64,000 nt of DNA, from NCBI GenBank assembly GCA_009733575.1, contig ML769605.1, forward strand, positions 53,214 to 117,213, given 5' to 3'. Below, one piece after another: positions 27,376-55,484 of this stretch. Each line of letters starts with the position of its first letter. Positions within the stretch are counted from its first letter, which is position 1. A program made the translations under genes and the position numbers. Source of the DNA: Gymnopus androsaceus JB14. Its lineage: Eukaryota > Basidiomycota > Agaricomycetes > Agaricales > Omphalotaceae. A model generated the notes under the pieces. The model was not told where the DNA came from, ran no database searches, and saw only the letters and a program-made list of their open reading frames with translations.

Positions 27376-27640
27376 CGTGACGCGGTACGTAAAAAATCTT
27401 CAGGGGATGCACGTATGAGCTGCGATGAGCATGCTGCAAGCGACGAAGAAGCTTACCGAGTAGAGTATTTGTTTCGGTTCAAGTCGGCGAAGTCGGCGAA
27501 ATCTGGGAGGTGAAAGTTGGAAATGTTCAGGTTTTATAACATAGCCGCGCGCGTATAGTATAAAGCAGCAATAATTAGCAGCCATAAGGCCACAGACGAG
27601 CCAGCCACAAGTGGCTGGTCAAAGGGAGAATTTCCGCGTT
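27376..27640 (-). promoter_or_regulatory. Promoter/5'UTR cassette, copy 1 (drives the J-like gene)
   Basis: Reading on the minus strand: CCACTTGTGGCTGGCTCG, GCTATGTTATAAAACC (TATA at 27531-27540), ACATTTCCAACTTTCACC, then CGCCGACTT in tandem, a TACTCGGTAAGC splice donor and a short untranslated intron before the ATG at 27375. Recurs at 35400-35640, 39900-40095, 44270-44420, 50155-50290, 55487-55620 and, degraded, 29050-29225; in plus orientation at 39600-39805. Confidence 0.85.
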
Positions 27641-27850
27641 TAGAACATGGCGATAAGAAAAGCAAAGATGTGGCGTCATAAATTACCTAATTTGGACAAT
27701 CTCTTTGTCTTCTTGCCGATCATCAATGTGGCCAATCCCTATGATTTGCCTTAGTCTGCCATGTCGTCCAGAACGAGGTAGGTTTTTGGCCCGGACAAAG
27801 AGCTTTTATCCATTTTGACTTGTGGCTTTTATGGACTTACAGCCACCCTA
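27641..27850 (+). promoter_or_regulatory. Outward-reading cassette arm, copy 1
   Basis: Continues from the promoter cassette: AAATTACCTAATTTGGACAA, TCATCAATGTGGCCAATCCC, then the small ATG exon with a one-base loss (ATGTCGTCCAGAACGAGG instead of ...TCCCAGAACGAG), donor GTAGG and acceptor TTACAG. The frame is disturbed, so this side is probably silent here. Confidence 0.6.
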
Positions 27851-29049: not shown

Positions 29050-29340
29050 GGTATTTGTTGCTGGAAATCGGTGACGTCGGCGAAGTCGGCAAAATCTGGG
29101 AGGTGAGAAACGTTCGGGTCTTGTAATAGTCGTGCATATAGAACAAAGTATACTTCATGGAGACACTAATAGCAGCCATTCTGGGCCACAGATGAAATGA
29201 CAATTTCCGCGTTTAGAACATGATCGTACTATCTTAATGCAATAGGATCGCCTTTGACTTCAAAATGCAAATCTAGAATGAGGTACGTTCGTCTGGCCCG
29301 GACTTCGAGCTTTTATTCCTTTTCATTCACTCAGATGCCT
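29050..29340. promoter_or_regulatory. Degraded double cassette (promoter arm minus, second arm plus)
   Basis: The minus part keeps CGCCGACTTCGCCGACGTC-like and GAACGTTTCTCACC sequence but its TATA position reads TTGTAATAG. The plus part keeps GAGGTACGTTCG, GGCCCGGAC and CTTTTATTCC without the initiating ATG. Both arms appear dead. Confidence 0.55.
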
Positions 29341-34217: not shown

Positions 34218-35339
34218 CTACACAGGTGAGGACGGAACGAAGCTGCGGTACTTGTGTATATCGCAGGTGAATAAAGGCATGAGGTCGCGGAATGAGATAC
34301 TAGAATGTGCAAGTCGAGGTCGTGGAGTGGATGGAAAGCTAACGGAGACTGGCCGATTTCTGAGGACAGATGAAGGATTTATCGACTGTATGGATGATAC
34401 AGAAGCAGCCATAAGAGAGCTAGTGGTATGAAGGGACGTTGTTTGCCGCTGAGCAGGTCCGGCTCCACTCGTGGTTGTATTCTTGCGGCGAGGGTCGTCT
34501 GTGGGAGAGGCAGGAAGAGGTAGCTGTGAGAGATCGGCGATATCATTGAGATCGTATTCATCTGGTGACAAGTCCATAGCAGATATCCATGGTAGGCTGT
34601 CAAAAACGGATGAAGACGACGATTGAGACTGTATTGGACATTCTACGTGAACGCAATGGTGCTTGCGCCGAAAAGCTCGATTGGAATCGGCAGACCGTGC
34701 CTCTATGAGTCTCAATGAAGACACTGTAAAACAATTGAGCTTGGTATTACACTTTGAGAAAGATCTCACTTACGAGTTGACATCGCAATAGTAGAAGAGT
34801 TAATGCGAGAAGGGGAACGCCTGAGTTCATTGGGTGCAAAGATGTCGGAAGAATCATCAATAGTTGCAGTAGGAAGAGACTGTGTACATTGTCTGTCTCT
34901 TGCGGCAGGATTCTTGCAGGTCGGAACTTCGGTGAATAGTTGTGGTTGGTTGAGAGCCATAGAGGCTAAAACATGGCAATGGACTGCGAAACAATCAGGT
35001 CCGAGTGCCTAAAAGCAAGAGGAAGGACTTACAAGCAGGAGAAGCCGATGAAGCAGGATCTATTGGTCGAGAGCATTAAAGACAGCAAGACGAAGAGGAT
35101 GGAAGAGACTTACCATTGAATAAAGATATTTCACCCCCACGCGCTGAAAAAAACGCATCAACGAAGGTGCATAAGACATGTAAGTAGGAGGAGGACATAC
35201 TGGGCTCCTGGGTTCGAGCACGTTTTCCAGCGGGCTCAGCCTGCTGGTCAGTAGCTGTGGAAGCACTATCTGGTACATTATTCGAGGGTAGCGAAAACTT
35301 GCGCTTCGCAGAAGGCAAGGCAGCATTTTGAGATTGCAT
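34218..35339 (-). CDS. Member 1 of a modular phase-1 gene family, 303 residues
   Basis: Five exons: 35339-35201, 35143-35114, 35059-35033, 34983-34774, 34723-34218. Every intron is phase 1, so the internal exons (30, 27 and 210 nt) are symmetric modules. N-terminus MQSQNAALPSAKRKFSLPS with a second basic cluster (EPAGKRARTQEP) looks like a bipartite nuclear signal. The short exons encode RGGEISLFN and DPASSASPA. The rest is Ser/Thr/Pro-rich and disordered (SSSSSVFDSLPWISAMDL, ending SFVPSSPV). Its relatives at 50117, 44178, 40520 and 39862 share exon 1 and the small exons but not the C-terminal exons. Driven by the promoter cassette at 35400-35640 with a 5'UTR intron. Function unknown. Confidence 0.75.
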
Positions 35340-35640
35340 AATGATCAAAGTTCTATGTAATAGAGAAAGAAGAGCATGGTGAGCTGCATTAAAAGTATTT
35401 TAAGCAGCGACGAGCTTACCGAGTAGAGGATTTGTTTCTGGATGTCGGTTTAAGTCGGCGAAGTCGGCGAAATCTGGGAGGTGAAAGTTGGAAATGTTCA
35501 GGTTTTATAACATAGCCGTGCGCGTATAGTATAAAGCAGCAATAATTAGCAGCCATAAGGCCACAGACGAGCCAGCCACAAGTGGCTGGTCAAAGGGAGA
35601 ATTTCCGCGTTTAGAACATGGCGGTAAGAAAAGCAAAGAT
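35340..35640 (-). promoter_or_regulatory. Promoter/5'UTR cassette, copy 2
   Basis: Same order of elements as at 27376-27640: CCACTTGTGGCTGGCTCG, TATA at about 35511-35520, CGCCGACTT repeats, TACTCGGTAAGC donor, and a 5'UTR intron ending TTACATAG 14 bases before the ATG. Confidence 0.85.
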
Positions 35641-35822
35641 GTGGCATCATAAATTACCTAATTTGGACAATCTCTTTGTCTTCTTGCCGATCATCGATCA
35701 TCAATGTGGCCAATCCCTTTTGCCTTTGACTGCCATGTCGTCCCAGAACGAGGTAGGTTTTTGGGCCGGACAAAGAGATTTTATCCATTTTGACTTGTGG
35801 CTTTTTATGGACTTACAGTCAC
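35641..35822 (+). promoter_or_regulatory. Outward-reading cassette arm, copy 2 (best preserved)
   Basis: ATCAATGTGGCCAATCCC, then ATG TCG TCC CAG AAC GAG (MSSQNE), donor GTAGGTTT, a 66-nt intron and acceptor GACTTACAG. Spliced in phase it continues SPNLVLKVPCNVLDSDTN. It lies 130 bp upstream of the RING gene's ATG and may supply that gene's 5' leader. Confidence 0.6.
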
Positions 35823-35952
35823 CAAATCTCGTACTTAAAGTCCCTTGTAATGTTTTGGATTCTGACACCAACATTTTGATCTTTTATCGGCGTAGGTCAG
35901 TTGTATCTGCCTTGTCGCTACTCCTTTTGATCATATTCACTAGCCACTTGCC

Positions 35953-36800
35953 ATGTCCTATGCTTCAACAAGCCGCAAACACTCAGCTGCCCAAATCTCC
36001 GAAGGTTCGCGGGCTCGTTTCGATCCTACTCCAACCCGTTCTGTGAGTTACATTACCTTACATATTCAAATCTTTCTTGAGATTTCTTGTTGATCCACAG
36101 AAGTTGTGTACACGCAAATATGGCCGTCGTGCTCATCAAGCCGCAGCCGCCTCTCTAACCATCAATCGCGTCTCATCAATTGCGACCATTCAGCGCGTCT
36201 CATCGGTACAAACCGTTGAGCAGGTCTCGTCCGGTTCCTCGTTTTCCACAGTGCAGCGTGTCTCTTCAACCCCATCTATTGAATGTATCTCCTCCACCAT
36301 TGACCACGTCTCCGCCCTGAGTACCGGGGAAGAAGGCGCTGAAGGATCAACAAGTCGAATGCAGGTAATATCGTTTACTTTTTATTCTTCTGAATTTATA
36401 CTCAGTTATCCTTGTAGCAGAATGCCCAAGCCACGTTTCAACTTTTCAAAGCCAGAGTCACCGAGGAGTTGTCGTGTTACATTTGCTGCAATCTTGCATT
36501 TCAGTCTCGCATGTAAGTCTTATTTCTGTGTCCGGAGACCACTATCTTATGAATTCTGTGTACAGAACTCCATGCGGGTATGTATTCTGTGCGCAATGCA
36601 TCAAAGCATTGAGATGCGAATCCATCGCAAAGAATCACGAAACTCGATGTGGCTTCTGTCGAACAAAGATCCATACCGAACCGACTCCTTGCTATCCACT
36701 GCAAGCCTTGGTCGAAATTTTGGCCCAAGAAGAGGGTATCGCTATTCCAGACAAAGTTCGAAAAGTTTGGACTCGTCGCACTCGCAAATTGAAAGGCTGA
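35953..36800 (+). CDS. RING-type zinc-finger protein with His-to-Tyr substitution
   Basis: Probable E3-type ubiquitin ligase-like protein. Start MSYASTSRKHSAAQIS at 35953; exon 1 ends before GTGAGTTAC at about 36042, and exon 2 (KLCTRKYGRRAHQAAAA) carries five degenerate repeats around RVSS/QVSS/HVSA. Exon 3 begins after the TTGTAG at about 36416, and the last intron is 36513-36565 (53 nt). The finger reads ELSCYICCNLAFQSR | ITPCGYVFCAQCIKAL then TRCGFCRTKI. In a C3HC4 RING the residue after Cys-Gly should be His; here it is Tyr (TAT). All seven cysteines are in place. The C-terminus ends TRRTRKLKG. Either a RING with weakened zinc binding, or a U-box-like/adapter protein that no longer ubiquitinates. 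Confidence 0.75.
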
Positions 36801-37391
36801 TACACCTTTCTCTATATTTCTTTCTTTCTATGTTCTTGCTGGTCAAGTACGGTAGACACGGTTCAAGGTTATAGATTGCTCCTTACCCGATACCGTGAAG
36901 ATACAGTACATAACTTTTTGTTACCAAGCTACCATGATGAGAATATCGACAGTCCGCTCAGTCCATCCAAGGTCCTGTTTTGTATGATTTGCTTGCTGCG
37001 ACCACACTCATGTAACGCTAGTACGTGCCTTGCAGTTATAATTCTTTTAAAAAAATTCATTTCCGCTCAGAAAGGATCCCTGAGTGATTCGGCTCTATTT
37101 GGATTCCATGAGTTGGGACGGTCTCGATTTCTCACTTGAAAGTCATTTTCTCGTGTAGCTCTTCTACGTGTCATAAAATACACATCTTTCCCTCGTTCAT
37201 TCAATCAAACTGTACACATGAAAACATTGAAAACATTTGCTCCTGTAAGCGCTATATGTACTCGAGTTTACACGAGTCTTATCCCAGAGTCTTCCCGTTT
37301 GTCAAATGGAAACAAAAAGCATGTACTCTCATCCTTGTGGTACTATTTAATTGATCATGTATTCAATTTTCTGGAACATTACGCTGAACTA
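36801..37391. other. Convergent intergenic, no gene seen
   Basis: Only short ORFs. Lies between the RING gene and the 3' end of the MYND gene. Confidence 0.4.
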
Positions 37392-39242
37392 TTAGAGTGT
37401 ACTATTACATGTATATGGTATGAGTACAAAGGTCTCAAGGTTTAGCAGAATACGCCTGCAACCAAGATTCAGTCCGTTGTTGCGTTCTACAAAGCCCTGG
37501 TGTTCAGGACACAGCTGTTCAAGGACCTCGTGTTTTGGTTGCAGAGCCATTGTGTCATTGGAAAAGTCGACAACGACAGCCCTTGTTTCAGTGTGACCGT
37601 CAATGAGAGCACAAATACGTGAAGACAACTGCTGTAGCCTGCTAACGACGACAGAATAAACGTAGTATTTTTCGAGGGAAGGTATGTCCGAACATCGTAA
37701 ATTTCTGCCACTGTGGATAGGATGCTCTGAAACGTCCTGTAAGCAAGTGCTTTTGCGAGAACATCCTCACCTACCATTTCGTTTCCTCGCAAGTTCTTTA
37801 CATTCTGCCCTATGACCTTCTCAATAATGGGCAATTTGGCACGTCCCGGAACAATAGGCAACAACTTTGCAGCCAGAACAGCGGCGGGCTGCAGATCGAG
37901 TTGAGGAGTCCATCATTAAAAGCTGTCCGTTGCACTTTCACATACCGATCAATAATCGGCCTGGGAGAAGTTGACTGAGTGAAAGGCTTACCTGCTCGCA
38001 TGCGTTTGCACAAGTGAGAGACCACATTGATTTCCGGAAGGATATCATCGCTGGGGTACAAAATGTGTCTATAGCCTGTCCCCACGCAGCCTGAAGTGAT
38101 ACCTCTGTCGGAGTATTCCCAAGGGAAAGCCTTCTCGAGGGTGTTTTGCTTAGGCTATGCTGAGCACGGTGACTGACTTCATGAAAAATCCAAAAGCGCA
38201 AAACTCTCCATACCAGGTTCTGAAGTAAATCTATGACGTTCGTATAGTTTAAAGACAGATCTGGATAGGTGTTACTCCAGTCATGAAGGAAATGGCATGT
38301 TCGGTATACCATTGGAAGACAGCGGTGATCCAGAGCAGTGGCGGTCCACAGTGGCCCTCCTGACATCCACATGGAGTGGCACTGCAAGATTCTGGCAATA
38401 CAGTCAAGTCGTAGGAGGGATGAGCTGTATGTTGCACTTCCAAGAATGGAGACTTTAGACGAGGTGAGAATACGCCACACTCTGTAAACATAAGGCCACG
38501 CTGATCGAGCAACATTTAATCGTAAGTGTATTTTGTTGCCGGGGAGAGTGATGACGAGGAGGAAAAGGTATAGCCGATGCCCTTGGATGGAAGTATAAGT
38601 CGGGTGAATGAGCTGCAGTTCAAGACAGTTCTTCCATGTGTCGGTTAGGGAAGTTCCAATGACAGAGCGCGACGCGACCTCTAGAGCCTTGACAAAGCCG
38701 CCCAAGGAACGTTCGTTTGTACGAATAATTCTTCGAACAATAAAAAGAACGCAATGCTGGTAATTGTTGTCATCTGTAGTGAGGTTGTCGGGCTCTATGA
38801 AGGCGACAACAACACAAAGAGCAAGTAGTTTCTTCAACTCGTATGATTCCAAGATCGTGGTCGCATGATCTGAGTGGAAGCCGGCGACAATTTCCGACAA
38901 CATGAGTAGAATGGGTACGACGAATGAAATGATAGTGTTTCTGAGAGCGACAGGTAGGTGGTCACCTTGATCTATCTCATACACATGGAGGACCTTGAGA
39001 CCAGCTCTTAGCCAGTTCCATAACGCGGACCATTCAGGCTCCACGGCAGCCCGAAATCCTTCAGAGCTGGAACAACCCAGCAAAGGTTGTGTATGAGCAA
39101 GAAAGGCTTGGTAGCGATCAGCATCGAAGACGAGTGAAGGACTTGAGCGGATGATTCTCTTCAGACGAGGTGGAAAGATATACATTCTGGGTGTCTCAGT
39201 ATCATGAAAATTTATGAGAACACTAGCTGGTAAAGGTGACAT
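37392..39242 (-). CDS. MYND-type zinc-finger protein with an in-frame stop in the finger
   Basis: MYND fingers bind zinc and mediate protein interaction. A long helical region fills the first exon (ATG 39240-39242, MSPLPASVLINFHDTETPR; about 420 residues). After an intron the finger reads RRCSGCKVVAYCSGTCQIAH, then TAT TGA GAA GGT CAT, then AECKEL (37855-37925). Relatives have Trp (TGG) where TGA stands, so one G-to-A change or an indel interrupts the finger. The last exon (YVYSVVVSRLQQLSSRICAL ... ETFVLIPYTCNSTL) is open to 37392, and its frame is one base off the finger frame, again suggesting an indel. This architecture is common in mushrooms. The gene may be decaying, or the sequence may be wrong here. 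Confidence 0.7.
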
Positions 39243-39429
39243 ACCTGTGTAACTTTATGTAGAGGCGAGAAGTTGAATCTGGAGTGTTTTCAAACCCAAG
39301 AGGACTCTTAAGTACGGTCCATGACTATTTTCCCTTTGTCGATCGCAAAAAAACAACGACTTGTTCTCTGCAAATGGCACTTTGACCAAGTCAAATTAGC
39401 CATTAATTAGTTGCACGGCAGCCTACGAT

Positions 39430-39560
39430 ATTAAAGCATCTAGTCAATAAGGGCAGAGTTCTTTGTCCGACCCACAAACGTACCTCGTTGATCTGGGGTT
39501 TTGCAGTGGAACGATATGCAAGCCAAAGAAAGTCCAAGAGATTGGTGCCTTGATGATTGG
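39430..39560 (-). promoter_or_regulatory. Outward-reading cassette arm, copy 3 (minus orientation)
   Basis: The reverse complement keeps CCAGATCAACGAGGTACG, TTTGTGGGTCGGACAAAG and a later acceptor near ATATCGTAG. The ATG codon of the small exon is not conserved. Confidence 0.5.
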
Positions 39561-39599
39561 CAAGAAGACAAAGATTGTCCGAATTAGGATGCATGTTCT

Positions 39600-39805
39600 T
39601 TGCTTCCATGTTCCAAATGCGGAAATTCTCCCTTTGACCACTTGTGGCTCATTTATGGCCTTCTGACTAGTCGCCATGGCTGTTAATGTCTTGTCTAATA
39701 CACACGAAATAGTATAAAACCCTGGACATTTCCAACTTGCACCTCCCACATTCCTCGCCGACTTCGCCGATTTCACCGACTTCCAGTTGCAACGGTAAGC
39801 TTGTG
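39600..39805 (+). promoter_or_regulatory. Promoter cassette, plus orientation (copy 3)
   Basis: CCACTTGTGGCTCATTTATG, AGTATAAAACCC (TATA about 39711-39720), ACATTTCCAACTTGCACC, CGCCGACTTCGCCGATTT and a CGGTAAGCTTG donor. It points into an inverted, truncated gene start, so it faces copy 4 head to head. Confidence 0.75.
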
Positions 39806-39810
39806 GTCAT

Positions 39811-39862
39811 CCAAGGGTAGCGAAAGCTTGCGCTTCGCCGAAGGCAAGGCAGCGTTCATCAT
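39811..39862 (-). pseudogene. Truncated exon 1 of the modular family
   Basis: MMNAALPSAKRKLSLPLD on the minus strand, then the sequence runs into the inverted promoter cassette at 39600-39805. Only the first 18 codons survive. Confidence 0.7.
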
Positions 39863-39899
39863 GCAAGTTCTATGTAATGAAGAAAGAAGAGCATGCTCG

Positions 39900-40100
39900 G
39901 TGAGCATGCCGCGAGCAACGACGAAGCTTACCGAGTCGGCGAAGTCGGCGAAATCTGGGAAATGAAAGTGTATAACATAGCCGTGCGCGTATAGAATAAA
40001 GCAGCAGTAATTAGCAGCCAGAAGGCCACAGACGAGCCAGCCACAAGTGGCTGGTCAAAGGGAGAATTTCCGCGTTTAGAACATGACGGTAAGAAAGCAA
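39900..40100 (-). promoter_or_regulatory. Promoter cassette, copy 4, with internal deletion
   Basis: Reads toward the truncated exon at 39862. Compared with copies 1 and 2, the segment between the CGCCGACTT repeats and TATA is shortened (GAAAGTGTATAACATAG at about 39963-39979). Confidence 0.7.
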
Positions 40101-40347
40101 AGATGTGGCGTCCTAAATTACCTAATTTGGACAATCTCTTTGTCTTCTTTCCCATCATCAATGCCACCCCGGCGCTCGCTCAAGTAACGACTTTCGTGCA
40201 TGATGCTGGTGCATCCATCAACCAACTTTCGCGGTGCCCTAATGTGTTTCCCATTTGGATAATTATAAAGTCATTTCGCGTATGCGACATCTGGTTGGCA
40301 GCCATAAAGTTATAGATTTGACGATGTTTCGGTCAGTAAAGACATAC

Positions 40348-40445
40348 CTTTGCGCTGTAAACATTTGAGCTCATCTCTTAACTGCCGATTCTCTTCTTTT
40401 AGAGTTCGTATTAATCTATCTTTGTCTCGGATAACCTCTGTCAAC
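40348..40445 (-). other. Isolated leucine-zipper exon
   Basis: Between a TGCAG acceptor and a GTATGTC donor the minus strand encodes LTEVIRDKDRLIRTLKEENR followed by QLRDELKCLQRK, a strong heptad coiled coil. 98 nt long. The neighbouring exons are not found; sequence on its 5' side (above 40500) belongs to a different, opposite-strand gene copy. Probably the remnant of another gene. Confidence 0.6.
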
Positions 40446-40519
40446 CTGCAAACATGGTGTTTCCCAGGTCAATCCAATATTGTTGGCATTGGATAAGGGA
40501 TCCGGAATCAATACTCTAC

Positions 40520-42181
40520 TCGGTAAGCTCAAGATACCGCCTTGCCTTCTGCGGAGCGCAAGCTTTCGCCACCCTTGGGCGATCTACCAGATGGTGCTTC
40601 CACAGGTACTGACCAGCAGCTTGAACCAGCTGGAAAACATACTTGAACCCAAGAGCCCGGTATGTCCTCTCGAAACGCCTCCTTTGTACACCTTCGCTGA
40701 CGCAGTTATTCTAGCGCGTGAGCATAAAACATATCTACTCAATGGTCAGTTTCTTTCATCTTTTTGTCTTGCTGTTTCTAATGCCCTTGACTGATAAGTC
40801 TTGCTCCATCGGCTTCTTCTGCGCGTGAGTCCGTTCTGTTGCTTTTAGGCACTCGAACATGATTGTTTCACAGACGGTGTCTTTCCTCTCACGTTTGCCT
40901 CGAAAATCAGCCCTGGTTCAGCCTCAACAGTCTCTAATCATTGTTGCACAGGGACCCTGTTGCTACCTTGGAGGTCGATTCTCCCTCTCAACATGCACTG
41001 TCTCCGTCTCCTCCTTCCCCTGCATCCGCGTCCAATGTTCCTACTGCCAATCGGAAACATGACCATACCGGTTCAGAGCACGAAGACTTTCCTACTGCTG
41101 ATACAAGTGCAAACTCTCAAGCGCAGTATACGCAGTCTCCTGCTGGAAAGCTGTTTGGCTGGGCCAAAGTCTGCAACGTATTAGGGTCCTCTAAACGACG
41201 GAAAGTTGATTTTCCTGGTAAGATGTCCCGTTATCCCCCATGTCAAGACCCAGAGCTAATTGTTGCCGCCAGTGTTCTGTCCGAAGAAGTATATCATCAC
41301 TGGTGAGGTTTGATTATCAATCTTTTCTTCTCCAAATAACTCATTATACTCCATGAACATACTTAGGTCCTCCTCCGGCGAGCAGTGAGTAGTGCATTTA
41401 TGGCTTTCTGCGTTAATCTCACTCGGTTTTTAAAAGATAACACATTCCCGTTTACTTTCAAGTACTCAGCGCATTCCTTGATGGAAATGCCCAGAACCTC
41501 TACTGGCCCTCCTTTGCCAAATTCTGTTGAATCTCTGCCTCGGAGACCTCCTGTTGTTTCCAGTCAATCGTCGGGGCCTGCTACAGGTTCTCCTTTGCCA
41601 ACTCCTGTTGCTCCCAGCCATTCGTTGGGGCCTGCTATAGGCTCTCCTTTGCCAAATTTTGTTGTTCCCAGCCAATCGTCGGAGCCTACTATGGGCTTTT
41701 CTTTAACAACTCTTGTTGTTCCCAGCCAGTCGCCGGAGCCTGCTACAGGCTCCCCTTTACCAGCTCCTGCTGCTCCCAGCCAGTCGCCGGAGCCTAACTA
41801 CAGGTCTACCTTGGCCAACTTTAGGGTCTTTACACGACGAATCCAATATCGAGGTCATCTAAACTGACATTTGGGAGCATCATCCCCAATCCCCTCCCTC
41901 TTCCAGCTCCGCAACTTCTCCGCCCGCTCGATCACAAAGTCCCTCGAGTCTGATTATGCCTCAGACGAGACTCCTCGATGCGACTGTCGATTCGAAGGGA
42001 AAACAGAAGACGGACGAAATGGACGTCGATCGTGATGATGGAGAAACTGGGGACATTGTTGTCGCAGGTCAATACCTCCATATCATGCCGATATCTTCTC
42101 CGAACTGACTGCAGTCTAGGTATCCTCGGCCCTCAGCTGTTACAGACGCCTTATATACTCGAGTTCTGGGGCGATCTAGGA
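40520..42181 (+). pseudogene. Member of the modular family, start codon deleted
   Basis: Shares exon 1 (CCGCCTTGCCTTCTGCGGAG; Gln-Leu-Glu where others have Gln-Ala-Glu), the 30-nt exon (REHKTYLLN) and the 27-nt exon with the 48814-50117 gene, plus PLTFASKISPGSAS. In place of the 5'UTR intron and ATG there is a direct join between TACTCGGTAAGCTC and AAGCTCAAGA. The 27-nt exon is one base short. Downstream exons encode SPAGKLFGWAKVCNVLGSSK, a Ser/Pro repeat tract (41545-41805) and TVDSKGKQKTDEMDVDRDD. Without the ATG and in-frame small exon it is probably not translated normally. Confidence 0.6.
41545..41805 (+). repeat. 60-bp coding tandem repeat, about 4-5 units
   Basis: Units of 20 residues of the form PVAPSQSSGPATGSPLPTP. 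The third codon positions and several first positions vary, while the frame is kept through the array. Confidence 0.85.
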
Positions 42182-42184
42182 TGA

Positions 42185-42740
42185 AGAAGACACACAATGG
42201 ATAGTCCCTTGTGACTATAACGAGCTCATGTAAGTAATTTAGACAGACCGATTCTATTTACATACCCACCCAGTTCCAATCACTCGCCGAGAACATATCA
42301 ACTTTGCCCGTTTTTAGATAATTCGATGCAATCCTCGGTATGAATATGTCTTCATGGTAAGGACCGATGGTCTTCGCCGACTTTCCACTGCTTTTGCAGG
42401 TCACCTGTGGGTTTCATTAGCTATTAAAAGGTGCTTTCACTGGTACCGACTGTCCGCTGTTTTCACAAGTAAACTTCAACGGATTCAATCGGGCATGTGA
42501 AAGACGAGGATCGATGATTTCTATTTATCTTTTTTGTCCTCCATTTTTGCCAGTAAAACTTCAATCACTTTAAATACAAATAATTGGCTGAATTTGCAGG
42601 TGCATGAAAGGAGACCGATGGTTTTCACTGAACTGATGTTTCACCTTTTTTCTGGGTGAGGTTCATGTTGTTATGTCTCATCAGTGTTATTATATAGCGT
42701 AGTACTATGTATTTATAGTAGAAAAAAACCAGTGAAAGTC
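42185..42740. other. No supported gene
   Basis: Non-coding; ACCGATGGT(C/T)TT(T/C)(C/G)CTGA-like phrases recur at about 42365 and 42620 and TTTTCAC motifs several times, without a regular period. Confidence 0.35.
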
Positions 42741-42844
42741 AATGGAAACCACTGGTCCTCATCGATTGCTGAAGTTCGATGGTTTGATGCAGCGGCGACC
42801 ACCGAGTGTCAATGAAAGCTTCGCGTTGAGGTCCCGATGCCCTT

Positions 42845-43520
42845 TCACGGTCCGCGTGTATCACTGGACGCCGCAGGATTCAGAGATACTCCGGAATCCC
42901 GCGTGCGCGCGATCTCACCACCATGACGGTCAAGGGTACTTTGGAAAGCAGATAACGTGGATGTATAGATTTCCGTCGAAGGAGACCGCTGGGCAACATT
43001 GGAGCCGTAGCTACTGTGAAAAGGGCTGCGCATGGGTAATGTGGGGGTATAGAGGTCCGGCGAAGGAGACCGCTCAGTGGCATTAAAAGACATTTGATAT
43101 CTCTGGGCACTGTAAGGCGGATGGAAGGCTCTGTCTTCCTCATCATAAGCACCCCTCATCTCAAGAAAGCCTTCCATTGTCATACTATGGGGGGTGATTG
43201 GGGGGAAGGAGAAGAGGATGGTCCTAGATCTGTGTCGGTACCGGTGGAAGAATCATTTTCTGACTCGGTATCTAGCTCCTCAACCATGCAAGAAGGCAGG
43301 ACGTGGTTTCGGAATTCAGTTTCCCCACGTTCACGGATGAGACGAAATGTATGGCATCCCGAACAGTGACAGTCATAACGATACGAGTGTGCATCTTCAC
43401 GGTTCTGCTCGGTTGTAGTAACATAGCCCAGCTGAGAGGAGGGCTGGGGTCCACTAAAAGGGCGATACTGGGAGACACCCTTAAAGTACAGTGGGTACTA
43501 CTGGATTTTAAATCTACGAG
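42845..43520 (-). CDS. Uncharacterised Ser/Pro/Tyr-rich protein, partial model
   Basis: Two open stretches on the minus strand. The first (about 43495-43200) reads YPLYFKGVSQYRPFSGPQ, AHSYRYDCHCSGCHTFRLI, ESENDSSTGTDTDLGPSSSP and stops at QSPPIV. The second (43183-42845, ATG MTMEGFLEMRGAYDEEDR) has two repeats of RSP(S)xxxYTxTL (TERSPSPDLYTPTLP, AQRSPSTEIYTSTLS). They may be two exons of one gene or two neighbouring genes. The C-x-C-x2-C-H cluster could bind metal. No family recognised. Confidence 0.4.
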
Positions 43521-43529
43521 CAGTCATTC

Positions 43530-44004
43530 TTGGCCAGCAGCAGTAAAGAATGATTAGAATGATTGTAAGATTTCGACGCTTGCAAAGAGAGGTAGAATGA
43601 TCGAAGTTTTGGCTGTACGATTCGCGAAAAGCGCACATTCATGCCTTCATTACGAATAATTTCTGAGAATCTTTTTGCTGCGCCAAACATTCGAGAGGAG
43701 GATACGTGAGCTTGTGCCCGCGAGCATCGCGGTGTTACGTCTAGACGGTCTCCTTGAGTCCTTGTGATTGGTTTCTTCCTCAACGCCGCACGCGGATGAT
43801 GTTGATCCAACGTATCGCGGCATTGACCCAGGTACCCCTGTTTGACAATTAACGCCTACTAGATCTACCATCAATCTACCATTACAAAGTTTTGATGAAT
43901 ATCGTAGTATCGTTTAACGTGAATGCGCTGGGGAGATATGATATATATATATATTCGGAGTCAGCATGACATATGGGAGCCATCTTGGTCCTAAAAAATT
44001 CTAA
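43530..44004. other. No supported gene
   Basis: A (TA)n microsatellite, ATATATATATAT, at about 43939-43951. Short ORFs only. Confidence 0.35.
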
Positions 44005-44178
44005 TCAACTGAAGATTGAGTTTGGGAATACCTGATCGGTCATATTGGGCCCCTCAGTTCGAGTACGTTTTCCAGCTGGCTCGGCCTGCTGGCCAGTAGC
44101 TGTAGAGGCACCATCCGGTACACTGTTCAAGGGTAGCAAAAGCTTGCGCTTCGTAGAGGGCAAGGCAGCGTTCATCAT
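44005..44178 (-). pseudogene. Modular family exon 1 with a dead splice donor
   Basis: MMNAALPSTKRKLLLPLNS followed by AEPAGKRTRTEGP. Where intact members have the donor GTATGT or GTATTT this copy has ATATGA, so the GT is lost; reading on gives a stop at 44005. The downstream exons are absent. Confidence 0.75.
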
Positions 44179-44264
44179 GCAAGTTCTATGTAAGGAAGAA
44201 AGAAGAGCATGCCAAGCTACAGTGAGCATGCCGCGAGCAACGATGAAGCTTTCCGATTGGAGTC

Positions 44265-44425
44265 AGATTTTGCCGACTTGAAGACGGCGAAGTCGGCGAA
44301 ATCTGGGAAATGAAAGTGGGAAATGTTCAGGTTTTATAACATAGCCGTGCGCGCATAGAACAAAGCAGTAACAGCCAGAAGGCCACAAACGAGCCAGCCA
44401 CGAGTGTTGAAATTCCGCGTTTAAA
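44265..44425 (-). promoter_or_regulatory. Promoter cassette, copy 5
   Basis: TATA (GTTATAAAACC) at about 44331-44340 and CGCCGACTTCGCCGTCTT repeats; the splice donor region reads CGGAAAGCTTC, so the 5'UTR donor GT is also lost. Confidence 0.8.
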
Positions 44426-44429
44426 ACAT

Positions 44430-45114
44430 GCGGAGGTTCGCGGTCCATGTTTCGGTATCACGTTCACGAACCTTCCTGGCATACTATCGGACTTTCTGGA
44501 TCGATTACGCACCTTACAAGAAAGAAAACTGATGTAGATGTAGATGGTAGGATTTTGATATCGTCACCTCCGAGTCGATGGCTATTATCTATATATCACT
44601 AATTCTTCTGGGAAAGCATTGTAACTTGTTCTTCGCAAATTCTAAAGTTTTCAAACTCAAATGCTCTGTTCTCTGAAGTTCATCTCTTAATTCCTGTGGA
44701 ATTCGATTTCAAAATCCTGTTCAAACTTGCCTGCGCAATGCAGAGACCCTTCCGTGAACGTACTACACGAGACAACATCACATATGCACTCTGAATCGAC
44801 TATGTGTCTAGATCTATGCAAACCATATCGAGAATTGCGAGCAACGTGAAACGAAAGCAAATGCCGGGATCAAAGGAAGCTGTGTTCTTATTGCACTACT
44901 CTGCTAGCAGGCGAAATTTGATGGTTGTGGTAATTGGTTTCAGTAGAACACGATAATCGTAATGCTGCATGCGGTCAGCCGCAGCTCATAATTTACCAAA
45001 ACTAGTGCACCAAGGCCTCCTTTGGACAAAGCCAACTTGAATTCTTTCGCAATGTTTTCAGTTCCAGATACCGGCATTCCTGGTAAAAAAAGGTGCCAAG
45101 TTTATACATCAAGG
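44430..45114. other. No supported gene
   Basis: Non-coding. An isolated minus-strand ORF just beyond (45115-45297, ITYTIAARDAHNFECAKAFA, CDIRGCGRELLKLLGD) has protein-like composition and may be an exon of an unidentified gene. Confidence 0.35.
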
Positions 45115-45529
45115 TCATTCGCCTCTTTTATGGGTATCTCCAAGTAGCTTCAGCAGCTCACGACCACAGCCTCGGATGTCACATAAATGATATAGGCTGA
45201 ACTCCTGACCAGTAGCCTGAGCAAAAGCCTTTGCGCATTCAAAATTGTGGGCATCTCTCGCGGCAATAGTGTAAGTTATCACCAAGTTAAATGACATGCA
45301 GATTTTGGATCAGTTATGCAGCGAGTTCTATCCGTGAGTGCTTTTAAAAATCCTCGTTTAATAGAACTCTCCTATCCGATAAATTCTGGAAAAAGGTTCT
45401 CTCTGGTTCCCGCGCCGCAAAGTAAGCCTCCTTCCCCGACTTGCCATCCCCTTCTGCTACCCTTATACCTGCGATATATAGTAATCATCTTATTCCGTGG
45501 TTGCTACAACCAACGATCATCTGGTCCAA

Positions 45530-45777
45530 GCGATAATGATCTGAGTCGAAGTTTTTACCGGAACAACTTGATGGTACTCACATCTCACTCTTGGTCTGCA
45601 TGCAAAGCGCGCAGACCTCCGTAACGCAATGGCCAATTGGGAGACATTTAATCCTGCTGTACAAAGGGAGGGAGTCACTTGTCCAACACCGGTCGGTGGG
45701 AGAATACTCTGTGGATTGGTGTGTCTAGGCTTCCTGGGGGGTCGTCCACCAGTCGACATACGTGCAGTTCTAACCAT
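45530..45777 (-). CDS. Protein with a histone H3-tail-like N-terminus
   Basis: ATG 45775-45777 opens MVRTARMSTGGRPPRKPR. Aligned to H3 ([20 protein letters not shown]), the block TARMSTGGRPPRKPR matches 10 of 15 positions; the equivalent of Lys9 is Met and of Lys14 is Arg, while Ser10, Gly12-Gly13, Arg17 and Lys18 are kept. The body is not a histone fold. A second frame through the same region gives IKCLPIGHCVTEVCALCMQT, a zinc-finger-like Cys set that needs an intron in 45690-45660 or a one-base shift to join the first exon. A GTGAGT donor lies at about 45582 and a CTCAG acceptor at about 45541. Probably a multi-exon nuclear protein. It could act as an H3-tail decoy for chromatin readers or methyltransferases; that is inference. 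Confidence 0.55.
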
Positions 45778-46381
45778 TGCTATGGTTCAAAAGTGGGAGT
45801 TTTAGTGGGTGGGATTCTGAATGAAGGAGCTTGATCACCGTTATATATATGAACCGCAGGGTGATCGTGCAACCAATACTCGAAATATCATGAATGAACA
45901 GAGTTTTGGCAATCTAGATGCAAGTATGCTTTAGCCCGCTGCCCAATCCTCACTTACTAATGATGCACTACTAAATGCGACAGCGACAGACTCCTCCAGT
46001 CTAGGGGATTTTAAGGAGTTCATTGAGAAAGCAATCCATGCTTAGATTGATAGTGAGCTTACATGCATAGTTTCAAGATCATACACATATGCTTGCTTTG
46101 GGAAGGTAGAGATGGAGCAAGGACAAGGATCATACCATGACGAAATCCGATTTCGGGCTCTAGGCGGCCCACTCGAGACCATGAACGTCTATAGCCTATG
46201 CTCTTCAAGTTAAGCCGCCCGCGGTCACTGATCCTGGGGCTTCTCAATCACAATCTTGTTCTGGACTCAGAAACAGGACTAAACAACGGTGGCTAGATCG
46301 TTAAGCCATCATAGTATCCAAGTTCGATGCTGTCTATTTAAAATTACTATGGTTTGCAACTTTCTGCACCCTCCTCACATC

Positions 46382-46872
46382 CTAGTTACCAAGTTTGATA
46401 CTGTCTATACTATAGGCAGTCGCAACTTGCTGCACCCTCCTCAGCCAAGCAGGATGCTTGGACTCGAAATGTTCCAAAATCGCCGATTGGGCATCGCTCC
46501 CTCTAAAGGTCATTTCTGGGTAGTCTAAGCGGGTCTTGCGGCGGCGCCCGCTGCAGAAAATGATGAAGTTTTCAGTTTAGTCTCTTATAAATGAATGAAG
46601 TGGGCTTACTGGCACAGAACGCAAGTCCTACGGTTTCTACTGGATTTCTCCAATATCCAATCAAGAGCTTTCTCGAGTGTGAAGGGGCATTGTAGCTGAA
46701 TCTGTTCGTCCGGTTCTGCCGAGACGATAGTGGTGAGTACTTATATGTGAAAGGAAGCGAGAGTTGACTGACTCCAAAGACTGGGTCGGGATATAATTTT
46801 AGCAGAGGCATTCGGCGGCGGCGTGGATCCCTTTTTTTTAGGAGCTTTATCACTGGTAGTTGTTCGAACCAT
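46382..46872 (-). CDS. Small BED-type zinc-finger protein, 124 residues
   Basis: Three exons, 46872-46773, 46715-46610 and 46550-46382, join in frame (phases 1 and 2). N-terminus MVRTTTSDKAPKKKGSTPPP is basic. The core is FTLEKALDWILEKSSRN, then CVLC (C-x2-C), HGRRRKTRLDYPEM, and ILEHFESKHPAWL, giving C-x2-C ... H-x4-H, the spacing of BED DNA-binding fingers found in transposase-derived proteins. There is no transposase domain; the protein ends IDSIKLGN. It shares the MVRT start with the H3-like gene 600 bp downstream and may be of the same origin. Confidence 0.65.
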
Positions 46873-46899
46873 GGTTGCAAGCTCCAAAGCTGGGATGGG

Positions 46900-47527
46900 T
46901 GAATATTTTGATGCAAGAGGTCCTGTTTTATAATGGTTTATAAGTAATGGTAACTTGAATCAAAGCCGAACATGCATGCTCAGCTAATTAGTAGCTAAAC
47001 AACAGCCTGTCAATGAAATTTCGTCTTTCATCGATAACTCAGGAGATTACTAAAACTAAAACCGAGCATCGCGTGAGACCGCGTCTTCTGGCAGATCTTA
47101 GAGAAAGCCTTGCCTTCTTCCAGATGAATTTATTGGCTAAGAGGGCACGGAGCAGGTGCCGAGGGTTCCCTGAAGGCCCAAGTACCTTGCAAGCCAAGAG
47201 GGCCAAGGTCGAAATTCGTGTCACTAGAAAACAGACCTCTTCCTGCTATGTTCCATCATTGATCCGAGAATGCTATATGATACAGGGCGATATAGTTTGA
47301 CATTTGCCATGCATAACTTGAATCATGACTCGGAAGGTAGGCATTGTTTTATGCAGACTGAGCCATGCGATATTGTCTCTTCAGATTCACCCCAGGCCGT
47401 GAATCTATATAAATGTTTGAAGCATACCTCGAAAACAATATCCAAAGGAACATCGTTCAAAAGAGACTGCAAAACTCCGATCCTTCCCTGAGTTCTTTTG
47501 AACTGTCCCGGAACATGATTCTTCCTT
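46900..47527. other. No supported gene
   Basis: A plus-strand ORF (47013-47300, KRARSRCRGFPEGPSTLQ) is Arg/Lys-rich but without support. Confidence 0.35.
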
Positions 47528-47719
47528 TTAAAATCGAAAGTTTGTTGGTGAAAGTACGTTGGTTGGATTGCGGTTTCTTCGTTGCTTTCCTCGATTTAGT
47601 CGCGGCTTTTCTTCACGATCGCATTCCTCACTATGACGACGCTTCACGCCGGGAAGTCCTGTGTCATCATCTTCCTCTTTAATCGGATTATTTTGCAGTC
47701 CTCGGGCGCGTCTTTTCAT
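47528..47719 (-). CDS. Small very basic ORF, 63 residues
   Basis: MKRRARGLQNNPIKEEDDDT, then KRRHSEECDREEKPR and a C-terminal PTNVLSPTNFRF. Composition suggests a nuclear, disordered peptide. No domain, no repeat elsewhere in the window. May be a chance ORF. Confidence 0.3.
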   Translation of the reverse strand: MKRRARGLQNNPIKEEDDDTGLPGVKRRHSEECDREEKPRLNRGKQRRNRNPTNVLSPTNFRF

Positions 47720-48099
47720 GGGATAACGCGAAGAAAGTGGAGATGAGAAGTGTACTTTCAAAAGAAATGATAAGCACTCCAAAAAATGATAAACGCTGAC
47801 GTCTGAGTCAGCATTCTGCTTTCAATTTTCAACTTGGGTTCATCCGCTACGCTTGACATGTCAAAACGGAAATCGTTTCTTACTGAATGTATACATCCTT
47901 TACTGCAAGAAATTATGTTCATCTGCAGTGAAAAGTACGGGGTCTCATGGCTCACTTCGTTGGACTGATTCCTCGATCTTAGTCTTCCGTCGAAATCGAT
48001 TTCGTACAATTCTACTAGGAACCATGCGTTCAGGGAAATGAATCGTTTCCTTGATTCCTCCACCCTCGATTTTCCTCGGAAAAAGGTGTGCCTCCATAC

Positions 48100-48350
48100 G
48101 TCGATGGCGGATGCAGAGGATGTAATGTACGGTGCGTCTATTGTCTCCCCAATTTTTCTCTCTATTTGAGGGACTTCCTTCAATCCCGCTATCCATCTAC
48201 CTTCTCCTCTCCTTATTTCTTCTCTCGTCATTATTGAAAACATGCAGCTAGACAGCGCATACATGTTGTTTGTACTGCTCCCATGATGAATTTGCAGGCT
48301 GCTTTCCTTTGGAAGCTATGGACAACATTTCCCTCTATTGCACCAGAGGA
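48100..48350 (+). other. Possible small plus-strand two-exon ORF
   Basis: ATG at about 48106 (MADAEDVMY), a GTGCGT donor and an AACATGCAG acceptor, then ARQRIHVVCTAPMMNLQAAF and a stop after PEECRDY. It falls in the duplicated block and is frame-broken in the right copy. Weak. Confidence 0.25.
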
Positions 48351-48813
48351 ATGTCGAGATTACTAGCGATGGTCTCGAGAGGATTGCGAGCTGGCACGCT
48401 CCCTCGACTTTACCGCAGTCTAATGTTTTTGAATCATTACGCCCGCGTCGTGTCTTTTGCAGCAGAAAAGTGAAAACAGATCTAAGTTGATTGCAATGCG
48501 TAGCTCGACATTACAGGCAAGGACAATTGCATCTGCAGGCGCAGGTTACATCTTTACTTGTATGTCTACTCGACAACTGCTCGAATTCTCGACTCGGACG
48601 CTGACTGCTATTCCATCCTCCGTTTGGTGCGATACAGACCCGGTTTCACAAGATGTCTGGTCACCAACAAGAACATTCGCAGATCGCCGAAGTTCGGGTT
48701 CGTCGAGTTCCCTGGGGCGTGGCGAAGAATTATTGGAATGGGTGCTGCCGACGTACACGTAGATGCCTCGAAGAATCTCATGCAGGTTGGGAGAAGGAGC
48801 GTTTAACAAATTC

Positions 48814-50117
48814 CTAAAATGTGTTTGCTGTGAAAGCATTAGTAATTACATCGAATCCGTAGTACCATAAACGTACTATTCCCTTTGTTTTCACTTCGTG
48901 CTGGATCAAACACTCAACCTCAGCTTGCAAGTAACGAATATCCGCCTCTGTATTACTGTTCATTGAATCTTTGTCGCCATTTTCAGTGAGCGAAGAGACC
49001 GAGGTTGTGTTTGGAGTTGAAGCTGCCGAACCTGGAGCAGAACCTGCCTGTCGCATAGTGTGGCTCTCCGCAACGTCAGGCATTTGACAGGGAATCCTCG
49101 TAGAGGTAGCAGGAGCTGATGATGGGCTTGTAGAAGGAGAGAATCCATTACTACAGTTGAGAAGAGTAGTTTGACACCAAGAGGCGGAAGACGCTCGCAA
49201 AGCTTCTGTATGGGCATCGTGCCGGTCTCTGCCAGAGATGACGGTAGATTCTGAGGCAGAGCCGGATCCAGCTACAGCGGAAGCGCCAAACAAAAGATTC
49301 GACCAGTGTGTATGGAACGAAAACGCATTTCGCATGACAGCATCTGCATGGAAGAATGTCAGAATCTGGCTCGAAACCTGAAAGGTACTCTCACTATCAG
49401 GTGAAGGAGAGACTACAGTTCATAGAGAGGTTAAGTCAACAAGGAATAAAAGCAGGTATATGAATGAAACCGACCAGGAATGCACTTCTTTGGATCAAAG
49501 TGAGAACAAAACGATCGTACACCGTTCCATATATGAGTTAACAGCCTTCCACCAATAGCAGCTCCGGCCTCTGCAGAATGGTCTTGTGAGCTTGACGTGG
49601 CGACATCGGAATCCATCTCCGCAGATTCATCGGCATTTTTGGCAAGTGAGGAATGATTCCGAGTTGTGGAGGTGGAGTTGAATACATGGAAAGGAACACC
49701 TGGCGAGGTTAAACCAGGGCTCACTTTCGAGGCAAAAGTAAAAGGATAGACACCGGCTGTGAAACAATCAAATCCGAGTGCCTAAAAGCAAGAGAAAGAA
49801 GAAGGACTTACAAGCAGGAGAAGCCGATGGAGCAGGACCTATCGGTCGAGAGCATTAAAAATAGCAAGACGAAGAAGATGAAAGAAAACTTACCATTAAG
49901 TAGATATGCTTTACCCCCACGCGCTAGAAGAACTGCGTCAACGAGGGTGCATAAGGCAGGCGTTTCGAGAAGAAATACCGGGCTCTTGTGTTCGAGCACG
50001 TTTTCCAGCGGGCTCAGCCTGCTGGCGAGTAGCTGTGAAAGCATCATCTGGTACACTTTCCAATGGTAGCAAAAGCTTGCGCTTTGCAGAAGGCAAGGCA
50101 GCGTCTTGAGCTTGCAT
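48814..50117 (-). CDS. Member 2 of the modular phase-1 gene family, 358 residues
   Basis: Five exons: 50117-49979, 49923-49894, 49838-49812, 49756-49475, 49412-48814; every intron is phase 1. Exons 1-3 have exactly the lengths of the 35339 gene (139, 30, 27 nt): MQAQDAALPSAKRKLLLPL, AEPAGKRARTQEP, RGGKAYLLN, GPAPSASPA. The later exons are different: FNSTSTTRNHSSLAKNADES, GGRLLTHIWNGVRSFCSHFD and a Ser/Thr-rich tail ending in a coiled coil (TEADIRYLQAEVECLIQHEV) and FTANTF. Basic clusters suggest a nuclear protein. The promoter cassette upstream lacks the 5'UTR intron. No family recognised. Confidence 0.75.
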
Positions 50118-50149
50118 AATGACCAAAGTTCTATTTGTTTCTGGAAGTC

Positions 50150-50292
50150 AGTTCAAGTCGGCGAAGTCGGCGAAATCTGGGAGGTAAAAGTTGGAAATGT
50201 TCAGGATTTTATACATTCGTGCGCGTATAGAACAAAGCAGCAGTGATTAGCAGCCATAAGGCCACAGACGAGCCAGCCACAAGTGGGAGTCA
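50150..50292 (-). promoter_or_regulatory. Promoter cassette, copy 6
   Basis: CCACTTGTGGCTGGCTCG, TATA-like GTATAAAATC at about 50206-50215, CGCCGACTTCGCCGACTT, then AACTGACTTCCAGAAACAAAT joined directly to AGAACTTTGGTCATT and the ATG; the TACTCGGTAAG...TTACAT segment (exon end plus 5'UTR intron) found in copy 2 is missing. Confidence 0.85.
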
Positions 50293-50294
50293 CT

Positions 50295-52700: not shown

Positions 52701-52702
52701 CC

Positions 52703-53074
52703 ATGGTTTCTGGATTGTCGGGGTTTGGCTCAGGCTCCGGTTCGTCTTCATCTGATGAGGTATCTACTCCAAACGCAGCTGCAGCGGGTCCTACAACGCC
52801 AAAGGCAAAGGCAACTCCGTCCGGCTCGAAGCCCCCTGTGGCTCGAAAACCCAAACCGAATATCAAACGAGGCCTACACGTCAGTCGACTCAGAGTCGGA
52901 TTTGGTAAAGGTTCAGGCCGAAATACACTTTTCACTCCCATCGAAGGAGAGAAACCTTGGGTTTTTTTGAGGGTACAGGTAGTCGGGTGTACCGATCTGT
53001 TGGCAAAAGATAGGAATGGTTTCAGTGATCCGTGAGCTCAAATCCACTCTATCTGATGTAATAAACGTACTAAA
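52703..53074 (+). CDS. C2-domain gene, 5' part, cut by the gap
   Basis: Same as 58105-58476 of the complete copy. Exon 1 runs to 53031; the intron is interrupted by the N run. Probably not a separate gene but the overlapping end of the left contig. Confidence 0.75.
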
Positions 53075-53099: not shown

Positions 53100-54147
53100 G
53101 CTGAAGTCTGAGTCAGCATTACTAGCTTTTCAATTTTCAAACCTTGGAGTTCATACCGCTACGCTTGCATGGTCAAACGGAAATCGTTTCTTAACTGAAT
53201 GTTATTCCTTATAACTGCAAGAAATTATGTATCATCTGCAAGTGAAAGTACGGGTTCTATGGCTCAACTTCGTTTGGACTGATTCTCGTCTTAGTCTTCG
53301 TCGAAATCGATTTTCGTACAATTCCTAACTAGGAACCATGGTTCAGGGAAAAGAATCGTTTCCATTGATTACTCCAACCCTTCAGATATAAATTCATCGG
53401 AAAAAGTGTGCCTCCATACGTCGATGGCGCGGATGCAGAGTGATTATGGTACGAGTGCGTCTATTGTCTACCCAATTTATCTCTTCTATATTGAGGGCTA
53501 TCCTCTCTCAATCCATCCACTAACTAATCTCCTCTCCCTTATTCTTCTCTCGTCATTATTGAAAAAATGCAGCTAGACAGCAGCATACATGTTGTTTGTA
53601 CTGCTCCCATGATGAATTTGCAGGCTGCTTTTCCTTTGGAAGCTACTGGCAACATTCCCTCTAATTGCAACAAGAGGAATGCTCGAGATTACTAGCGATG
53701 GTCTCGAGGGATTGCGAGCTGGCACGCTCCCGTCGACTTTACGGCAGTCTAATGTTTTTGAATCATTGACGCCCGCGTCGTGTCTCTTTGCAGCAGAAAA
53801 GTGAAAACAGATCTAAGTTGATTGCAATGCGTAGCTCGACATTACAGGCAAGGACAATTGCATCTGCAGGCGCAGGTTACATCTTTACTCATGTATGCCC
53901 TCTACCGACAACTGCTCGAATTCTCGACTCGGACGCTGACTGCTATTCATCCTCCGTTTGGTGCGATACCAGACCCGGTTTCACAAGATGTCTGGTCACC
54001 CAAAAGAACATTACGCAGATCGCCGAAGTTCGGTTCGTCCGAGTTCCATGGGGCGTGGCGAAGAATTATTGGAATGGTGCTGCCGACGACACGTAGAATG
54101 CCTCGAAGATCTCATGCAGGTTGGGAGAAGGAGCGTTTAACAAATTC

Positions 54148-55447
54148 ATAAAATGTGTTTGCTGTGAAACATTAGTAATTACATCGAATCCGTTACCATA
54201 AACGTACTATTCCCTTTTGTTTTCACTTCGTGCTGGATCAAACACTCAACCTCAGCTTGCAAGTAACGAATATCCGCCTCTGTATTACTGTTCATTGAAT
54301 CTTTGTCGCCATTTTCAGTGGCGAAGAGACCGAGGTTGTGTTTGGAGTTGAGCTGCCGAACCTGGAGCAGAACCTGCCTGTCGCATAGTGTGGGCTCTCC
54401 GCAACGTCAGGCATTTGACAGGGAAATCCTCGTAAGGTAGCAGGAGCTGATGATGGCTTGTAGAAGGAGAAATCCATTAACTACAGTTGAGAAGAGTAGT
54501 TTGACACCAAGAGGCGGAAGGCTCGCAAAGCTTCTGTATGGGCATCGTGCCGGTCTCTGCCAGAGATGACGGTAGATTCTGAGGCAGAGCGGATCCAGCT
54601 ACAGCGAAGCGCAAAACAAAAGATTCGACCAGTGTGTATGGAACGAAACGCATTTCGCATGACAGCATCTGCCATGGAAGAATGTCAGATCTGGCTCGAA
54701 ACCTGAAAGGTACTCTCACTATTCAGTGTGAAGGAGAGACTACAGTTCATAGAGAGGTTAAGTCAACAAGGAAATAAAGCAGGTATATGAATGAAACCGA
54801 CCAGGAATGCACTTCTTTGGATCAAAGTGAGAACAAAACGATCGTACACCGTTCCATATATGAGTTAACAGCCTTCCACCAATAGCAGCTCCGGCCTCTG
54901 CAGAATGGTCTTGTGAGCTTGACGTGGCGACATCGGAATCCATCTCCGCAGATTCATCGCATTTTTGGCAAGTGAGGAATGATTCGAGTTGTGGAGGTGG
55001 AGTTGAATACAAATGGCAAAGGAACACCTGGCGAGGTTAAACCAGGGCTCACTTTCGAGGCAAAAGTAAAAGGATAGACCACGCGGCTGTGAAACAATCA
55101 AATCCGAGTGCCTAAAAGCAAGAGAAACGAAGAAGGACTTACAAAGCAGGAGAAGCCGATGGAGCAGGACCTATCGGTCGAGAGCATTAAAAATAGCAAG
55201 ACGAAGAAGATGAAGAAAACTTCTTACCATTAGTAGATATGCTTACCCACGCGCTAGAAGAAACTGCGTCAACGAGGGTGCATAAGGCAGGCGTTTCGAG
55301 AAGAAATCGGGCTCTTGTGTTCGAGCACGTTTTCCAGCGGGCTCAGCCTGCTGGCGAGTAGCTGTGAAAGCATCATCTGGTACACTTTCCAAATGGTAGC
55401 AAAAGCTTGCGCTTTGCAGAAGGCAAGGCAGCGTCTTGAGCTTGCAT
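54148..55447 (-). pseudogene. Second assembled copy of modular family member 2
   Basis: Same exons as 48814-50117 but with about a dozen one-base indels (for example near 54340, 54440, 54600, 54960, 55310), and the terminal TAG is TAT. Most likely a low-quality duplicate of the same locus. Confidence 0.65.
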
Positions 55448-55484
55448 AATGACAAAGTTCTATTTGTTTCTGGAAGTCAGTTCA

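Follow-up and report, generated by a model that had tools for sequence, protein, structure and literature searches.

How do genes that share a promoter and three short first exons come to end in unrelated sequences? The question is raised by a stretch of 64,000 nucleotides (nt) from the litter fungus Gymnopus androsaceus JB14 (C223:53214-117213, termed the window), which lies in an assembly of 83.3 Mb on a contig of 117213 bases, the end of contig C223 being window base 64000. Two genes in the window, termed here gene A and gene B, begin with a common leader and continue into different 3' exons. An earlier reading of the letters (the original prediction) took them for a modular family diversified by swapping 3' exons bounded by phase-1 introns through recombination in those introns. 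Sequence comparison shows the pattern to be real as well as unusual and identifies a donor for one tail, against which the phase-1 engine fails. We consider it probable that the locus represents a young, decaying and locally rearranged family with chimeric tails, of which one is old and shared, and that no system of phase-1 exon exchange operates here.

Gene A and its parts are as follows.

34218..35339, minus strand: gene A (BT96DRAFT_944922, protein P0003), 303 amino acids, spliced from the window
35339-35201, 35143-35114, 35059-35033, 34983-34774 and 34723-34218, minus strand: exons of gene A, spliced at the originally predicted sites
34774..34983, minus strand: exon 4 of gene A, body type I, common to a member on contig C629 (z of 31) and to protein P0017 (40% identity over 55 amino acids)
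34218..34723, minus strand: exon 5 of gene A, a copy of exon 3 of BT96DRAFT_992658 (82% over 485 nt)

The exons of 139, 30, 27, 210 and 506 nt are separated by four introns, all GT..AG and in phase 1, and the frame is open in the sequence spliced from the window. The first exons of 139, 30 and 27 nt that had been predicted are also those of the public model, and the public P0003 (340 amino acids) includes the 303 residues at 100% identity, preceded by 37 extra residues. A paper on 52 genomes of Agaricomycetes that lists G. androsaceus states, in its account of annotation, that the new genomes were annotated with the JGI (Joint Genome Institute) pipeline and that RNA sequencing was used for improvement (PMC8480192).

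The last exon of gene A derives from another gene. Residues 142-302 match C71:43833-44306 at 74% with no stop codon, and this locus is BT96DRAFT_992658 (P0005), of which the exons are 57, 63 and 489 nt long, both introns are in phase 0, and the spliced product is P0005. The search with A returned 26 proteins at an expectation value (E) of up to 1 among 3701 candidates; three were the leader-family proteins P0002-P0004 of G. androsaceus, and the stronger remaining matches came from Lentinula, Collybiopsis, Rhodocollybia, Stygiomarasmius and Mycena. By these matches, BT96DRAFT_992658 is a member of a conserved agaric family. Gene A possesses the conserved C-terminal domain of that family and lacks its first two exons, in the place of which stand the leader and exon 4. 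The copy on C629 is similar to A through intron 4 and for the initial dozen bases of exon 5 and differs from there on; the join is thus located about 11-17 nt inside exon 5. A join within an exon, together with the phase-0 introns of the donor, means that matched phases did not make the tail of A.

The same combination was found in a second protein. P0017 resembles exon 4 of A (E of 3e-6 in a single comparison) and also matches the captured domain. A tree was built from A exon 5 with 15 proteins (P0005-P0019) chosen from the 23 new ones of the search with A, the eight weaker ones being dropped; in it, A exon 5 and P0017 formed a clade with a support of 89/85. Since P0017 has both the exon-4 relative and the captured domain and clades with A, the chimera probably predates the split of the two and seems to be common to them. 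Altogether, gene A is, on these alignments, a true and fairly old chimera of the leader, an orphan exon 4 and a last exon copied from a conserved agaric gene. At 56 positions invariant in 11 orthologues (the C71 gene and the two most distant sequences were left out), the C71 gene has 1 difference, A 11 and P0017 18, and by this count the captured domain of A is released from constraint, or its constraint has changed. The ratio of nonsynonymous to synonymous substitution rates (dN/dS) between A exon 5 and the C71 gene is 0.55.

Gene B had been predicted with the same first exons and with an end at 48814. The model was corrected as follows.

48546..50117, minus strand: gene B, corrected from splice signals and open frame, the tail backed by P0001 (97% over P0001 residues 316-406)
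50117-49979, 49923-49894, 49838-49812, 49756-49475, 49412-48877 and 48827-48546, minus strand: exons of gene B in the corrected model

The predicted splice sites give exons of 139, 30, 27, 282 and 599 nt with phase-1 junctions and an open frame, so that the first three were recovered exactly, and introns 1-4 are GT..AG and in phase 1. Within the last predicted exon lies a fifth intron of 49 nt (48876-48828, GTACGT...TTTCACAG) in phase 0, past which the frame stays open as far as 48546. P0001, an annotated close copy of B, is spliced at this intron, and its residues 316-406 are the ones that match the added stretch; the protein shows 94-97% amino-acid identity to the body of B over three long stretches (P0001 was compared as a protein, its contig of 6905 nt not being among the genome matches). 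The splice signals, the open frame behind them and the public model of a close copy argue that the phase-0 intron is real. On this evidence gene B has six exons, and four of its five introns are in phase 1; the predicted end is moved across intron 5 to near 48546. Its tail is, as far as the comparisons go, an orphan.

The homology between A and B, introns included, ends exactly at the acceptor of intron 3. Over ungapped columns, exons 1-3 of the two leaders are 86, 77 and 93% identical and introns 1-3 are 69, 89 and 94% identical, so that the leader exons are not clearly better kept than the leader introns. Exon 4 of A aligns to that of B with a z of -0.1, and 152 of 300 shuffles did equally well. 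The claim that the 3' exons of A and B are unrelated was borne out in this comparison, in which exon 4 scores as shuffled sequence while the leader introns remain 69-94% identical. The leader dN/dS is 1.05 between A and B (65 codons), 1.47 between the broken member C (below) and A, and 0.84 between C and B (53 codons each, the stops of C excluded). Two basic clusters in the leader, KRK and KRAR, have the look of nuclear signals by eye, and the leader of about 65 residues, which is basic, is probably nuclear, as this look suggests, and disordered. The AlphaFold model of P0003, built on a 13-row alignment, has almost no secondary structure (mean predicted local distance difference test, pLDDT, 51.3; predicted template modelling score, pTM, 0.20), an outcome that either protein disorder or a thin alignment would produce. 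No Pfam family was found for A or B (E up to 1), and none for any of the 8 proteins searched (A, B, P0001, P0004, P0005, P0017 and two neighbouring ORFs, or open reading frames). The search with full-length B returned 4 proteins (E up to 1, among 7816 candidates) and that with A residues 1-141 returned 3 (E up to 10, among 402 candidates), all of G. androsaceus; the leader was not found outside this species in protein searches, in which genes absent from protein collections are invisible.

The shared sequence extends upstream of the coding exons. The constant promoter of the original prediction was confirmed by alignment of the copies before A and B, and further copies were detected in the window (UTR, untranslated region).

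35430..35823, minus strand: promoter and 5' leader of A (92% for 35406-35823 against 27439-27847; 92% to B over 157 nt)
35419-35353, minus strand: probable 5'-UTR intron of A, by eye
50133..50286, minus strand: promoter and 5' leader of B, its outer edge adjoining a C128-related segment
39433..39786, plus strand: inverted promoter copy (68% over 395 columns to 35438-35804)
39934..40163, minus strand: promoter copy of member E (88% to 27482-27728)
27409..27847, minus strand: promoter and 5'-UTR copy before an unrelated ORF of 446 amino acids, by sequence match
26035..27375, minus strand: the 446-amino-acid ORF behind the shared promoter, unrelated to the leader, from the ORF list

The promoter of B stops at 50286-50290 against the C128-like segment. 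A relative of the 446-amino-acid ORF on C88 (47%) has no promoter copy among the matches listed. We dropped the promoter as a widely dispersed element, as two genome searches, in which the best candidates were scored, matched C223 and C629 alone (at least 14 and at least 11 matches). Three side observations concern these regions: the segment at 50290-52716, which adjoins the promoter of B, is low-copy and 68-90% like several C128 stretches; 29052-29148 is a worn promoter remnant; and a 64-nt piece at 29697-29760 is 81% like the sequence downstream of intron 4 in the C629 member. At 35950-36800, divergent from the promoter of A, lies a RING-finger gene by eye, of which one unspliced ORF was tested and matched no Pfam family.

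The three further broken members predicted within 10 kb were all located between or near A and B, at 40525 (plus strand), 44175 (minus strand) and 39862 (minus strand).

40525..40925, plus strand: member C, broken, without a start codon at the homologous place, with a stop in exon 1 and an exon 3 of 26 nt
44038..44175, minus strand: member D, consisting of exon 1 alone; resemblance to A stops 8 nt into intron 1, and the donor GT reads AT (by eye)
42742..43698, minus strand: sequence behind D, belonging from about 43698 onward to another gene family, which is matched on C797 and, twice, on C61, there without the leader
39810..39862, minus strand: member E, a fragment with roughly the opening 50-55 nt of coding exon 1 (of which 46 nt align to B), adjoining the inverted promoter copy
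54130..55463, minus strand: B', a near-copy of B with many small differences near the contig end, by sequence match; P0002 is located here

B and C remain alike over roughly the first 52 nt of exon 4 (z of 22 over the first 60 nt), after which the rest scores a z of 1.3. At the 5' end of C, the donor region of the 5' UTR is joined to exon 1 (by eye), and a repeated Pro/Ser-rich stretch lies behind C at 41548-41822. The public model BT96DRAFT_1000708 (P0004) links exon 1 of D to downstream exons. Absent from the original list were the near-copy B' (about 54.1-55.46 kb), the 27.4-kb promoter copy that precedes the unrelated ORF, and the C629 copy, a further broken member of the leader family. 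We infer that A still functions as a gene, as B perhaps does, and that the four broken members (C, D, E and the copy on C629) are relics.

B' was not used as independent evidence or counted as a separate gene, as its differences from B are clustered beside a difference-free kilobase and the contig end is near. The alignment of 47795-51469 and 53100-56801 contains 72 insertions or deletions and 145 mismatches by MAFFT, and B against B' has 106 gap openings and 49 mismatches by BLAST; this pair of copies may be poorly polished or misassembled. A candidate relative of the tail of B on C218 (E of 0.008 in the genome search; 34.5%, E of 3.8e-5 in a 6-kb piece) was judged to match by chance, as the match spans an intron of B, holds short frames only and adjoins an apparent gene on the opposite strand (by eye).

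Eight joins were counted by reading the alignments. One falls at a splice site (A against B, at the intron-3 acceptor), two fall inside introns (the 27.4-kb promoter copy, in the 5'-UTR intron, and D, 8 nt into intron 1), and five fall elsewhere (A/C629 in exon 5, B/C in exon 4, E within exon 1, C at its 5' end, and B at its upstream edge). They look like general DNA rearrangement more than intron-matched exon swapping. Thus, we propose a start cassette composed of the promoter, the 5' UTR and the three short exons for the leader. Local segmental duplication and inversion, with presumably illegitimate joining as the mechanism of the joins, would have multiplied this cassette and split it apart, leaving it before unrelated sequences, and the reading frame at each join would be kept through chance and selection, without matching of intron phases.

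The swapping of phase-1-bounded 3' exons through intron recombination, as first predicted, is the alternative that survives best, and we regard it as improbable. Exons 2 and 3 (30 and 27 nt) are symmetrical 1-1, and five of the six separable coding introns (introns 1-3 common to A and B, A4, B4 and B5) are in phase 1, which would happen by chance at about 2% if phases were equally frequent (a hand calculation made after the fact). The prediction that all introns are in phase 1 holds for introns 1-4 of A and B and fails at intron 5 of B. The boundary between A and B at the intron-3 acceptor and the two joins inside introns also suit exon exchange, whereas the sole traced donor has phase-0 introns and joins within an exon, and five of the eight joins lie outside both splice sites and introns; exchange through matched phase-1 introns is thus not upheld. 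Recombination among members, also predicted, did not appear in the leaders: a quartet test with four of them (A, B, C and C629) gave approximately unbiased (AU) values of 0.60 for the grouping that agrees with the tails, 0.51 for the disagreeing one and 0.06 for the third, and a maximum chi-square scan of A, B and C gave a p of 0.22, both tests having low power (the latter with three leaders).

That no copy, A and B included, yields a working protein seems to us a rather slim prospect. The leader dN/dS of about 1 between A and B, the broken or cut-short state of C, D, E and the C629 copy, the conserved positions lost from the captured domain and the low-confidence model of gene A (mean pLDDT 51) are all consistent with relics throughout. 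On the other hand, the chimera of A is still open in the much-diverged P0017, A exon 5 has a dN/dS of 0.55 against C71, and P0001 retains the body of B at high amino-acid identity. That the tails are diverged homologues of one ancestral gene, which the original prediction had named as grounds for its own rejection, is very unlikely for the family as a whole. Such homology does link some pairs (exon 4 in A and the C629 member; about 52 nt at the start of exon 4 in B and C) and does not link A to B, in which introns 2 and 3 are 89-94% identical while the adjoining exon scores as shuffled; for A exon 5 it is refuted by the separate origin on C71.

Several observations weigh against a decaying family built by local rearrangement. 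Exon swapping would predict a boundary at a splice site, and the one between A and B is exactly there; introns also contain two of the other joins. The leader dN/dS values of D, 0.41 against A and 0.28 against B (41 codons each), hint at constraint. The A-P0017 clade goes no higher than its 89/85, P0017 is flagged as a long branch, and by raw identity the P0017 domain stands closer to that of the C71 gene, at 60.7%, than to that of A, at 55.6%; rapid change in both A and P0017 would lead one to expect this, and it is also a caution. Finally, the last 100 nt of exon 4 in B and C give a z of 3.0 and the exon-5 stretch a z of 2.6; faint homology may persist beyond the ~52 nt, in which case the B/C join would be divergence instead.

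A larger claim may be made of the rearranged family, which we advance tentatively and hold to be unlikely as yet: the promoter and leader would be a portable gene-starting cassette, complete or partial copies of which precede four or more unrelated bodies in 30 kb, with one product kept in a second diverged lineage, and the cluster would be a trial ground for new chimeric genes. The four bodies are the 446-amino-acid gene, the captured conserved domain, the orphan tail and another multicopy family.

Young chimeric genes can arise by segmental duplication, which places a promoter and first exons before a partial copy of another gene. The arrangement in gene A is of this kind, and the cluster departs from it in that one cassette, whole or partial, stands before several different sequences. 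Oomycete Crinkler-type effectors combine a constant N-terminus with varied C-termini, an architecture like that of the present family, whose host is a litter fungus. In a published review, exon shuffling is recognized by flanks of the same phase and by domain boundaries matching intron boundaries, and class 1-1 shuffling is described as restricted to Metazoa (PMC8001218). Like class 1-1 shuffled proteins, the cluster has short symmetrical 1-1 exons and one constant/variable boundary exactly at a splice site; flanks of the same phase are present in part, and boundaries match in three of the eight joins. Unlike them, it has most of its joins outside introns and a phase-0 intron in B, and the donor on C71 is phase 0/0, compared with the phase-1 introns of A, and joined within an exon. 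Gene A differs likewise from the BT96DRAFT_992658 family, as it copies the last exon of the family and carries the leader and exon 4 for the first two. No publication was found on four locus tags searched or on basidiomycete chimeras, and their absence from print is not thereby proven.

If our interpretation is correct, the locus would be a clear fungal case in which one promoter-and-leader unit gave rise to several chimeric genes, and the identified donor together with a second sequence carrying the chimera would make gene birth and decay datable. A run of same-phase introns would be weak evidence for exon shuffling, as the sole exchange traced to a donor made no use of phase.

Elsewhere in the window, two similar ORFs with TPR repeats (3383-5137 and 16243-18075) lie within arrays of 126-nt tandem units, an ORF at 7498-7983 matches the lytic polysaccharide monooxygenase family AA14, and an ORF at 58418-59110 contains a C2 domain (E of 1.2e-5).

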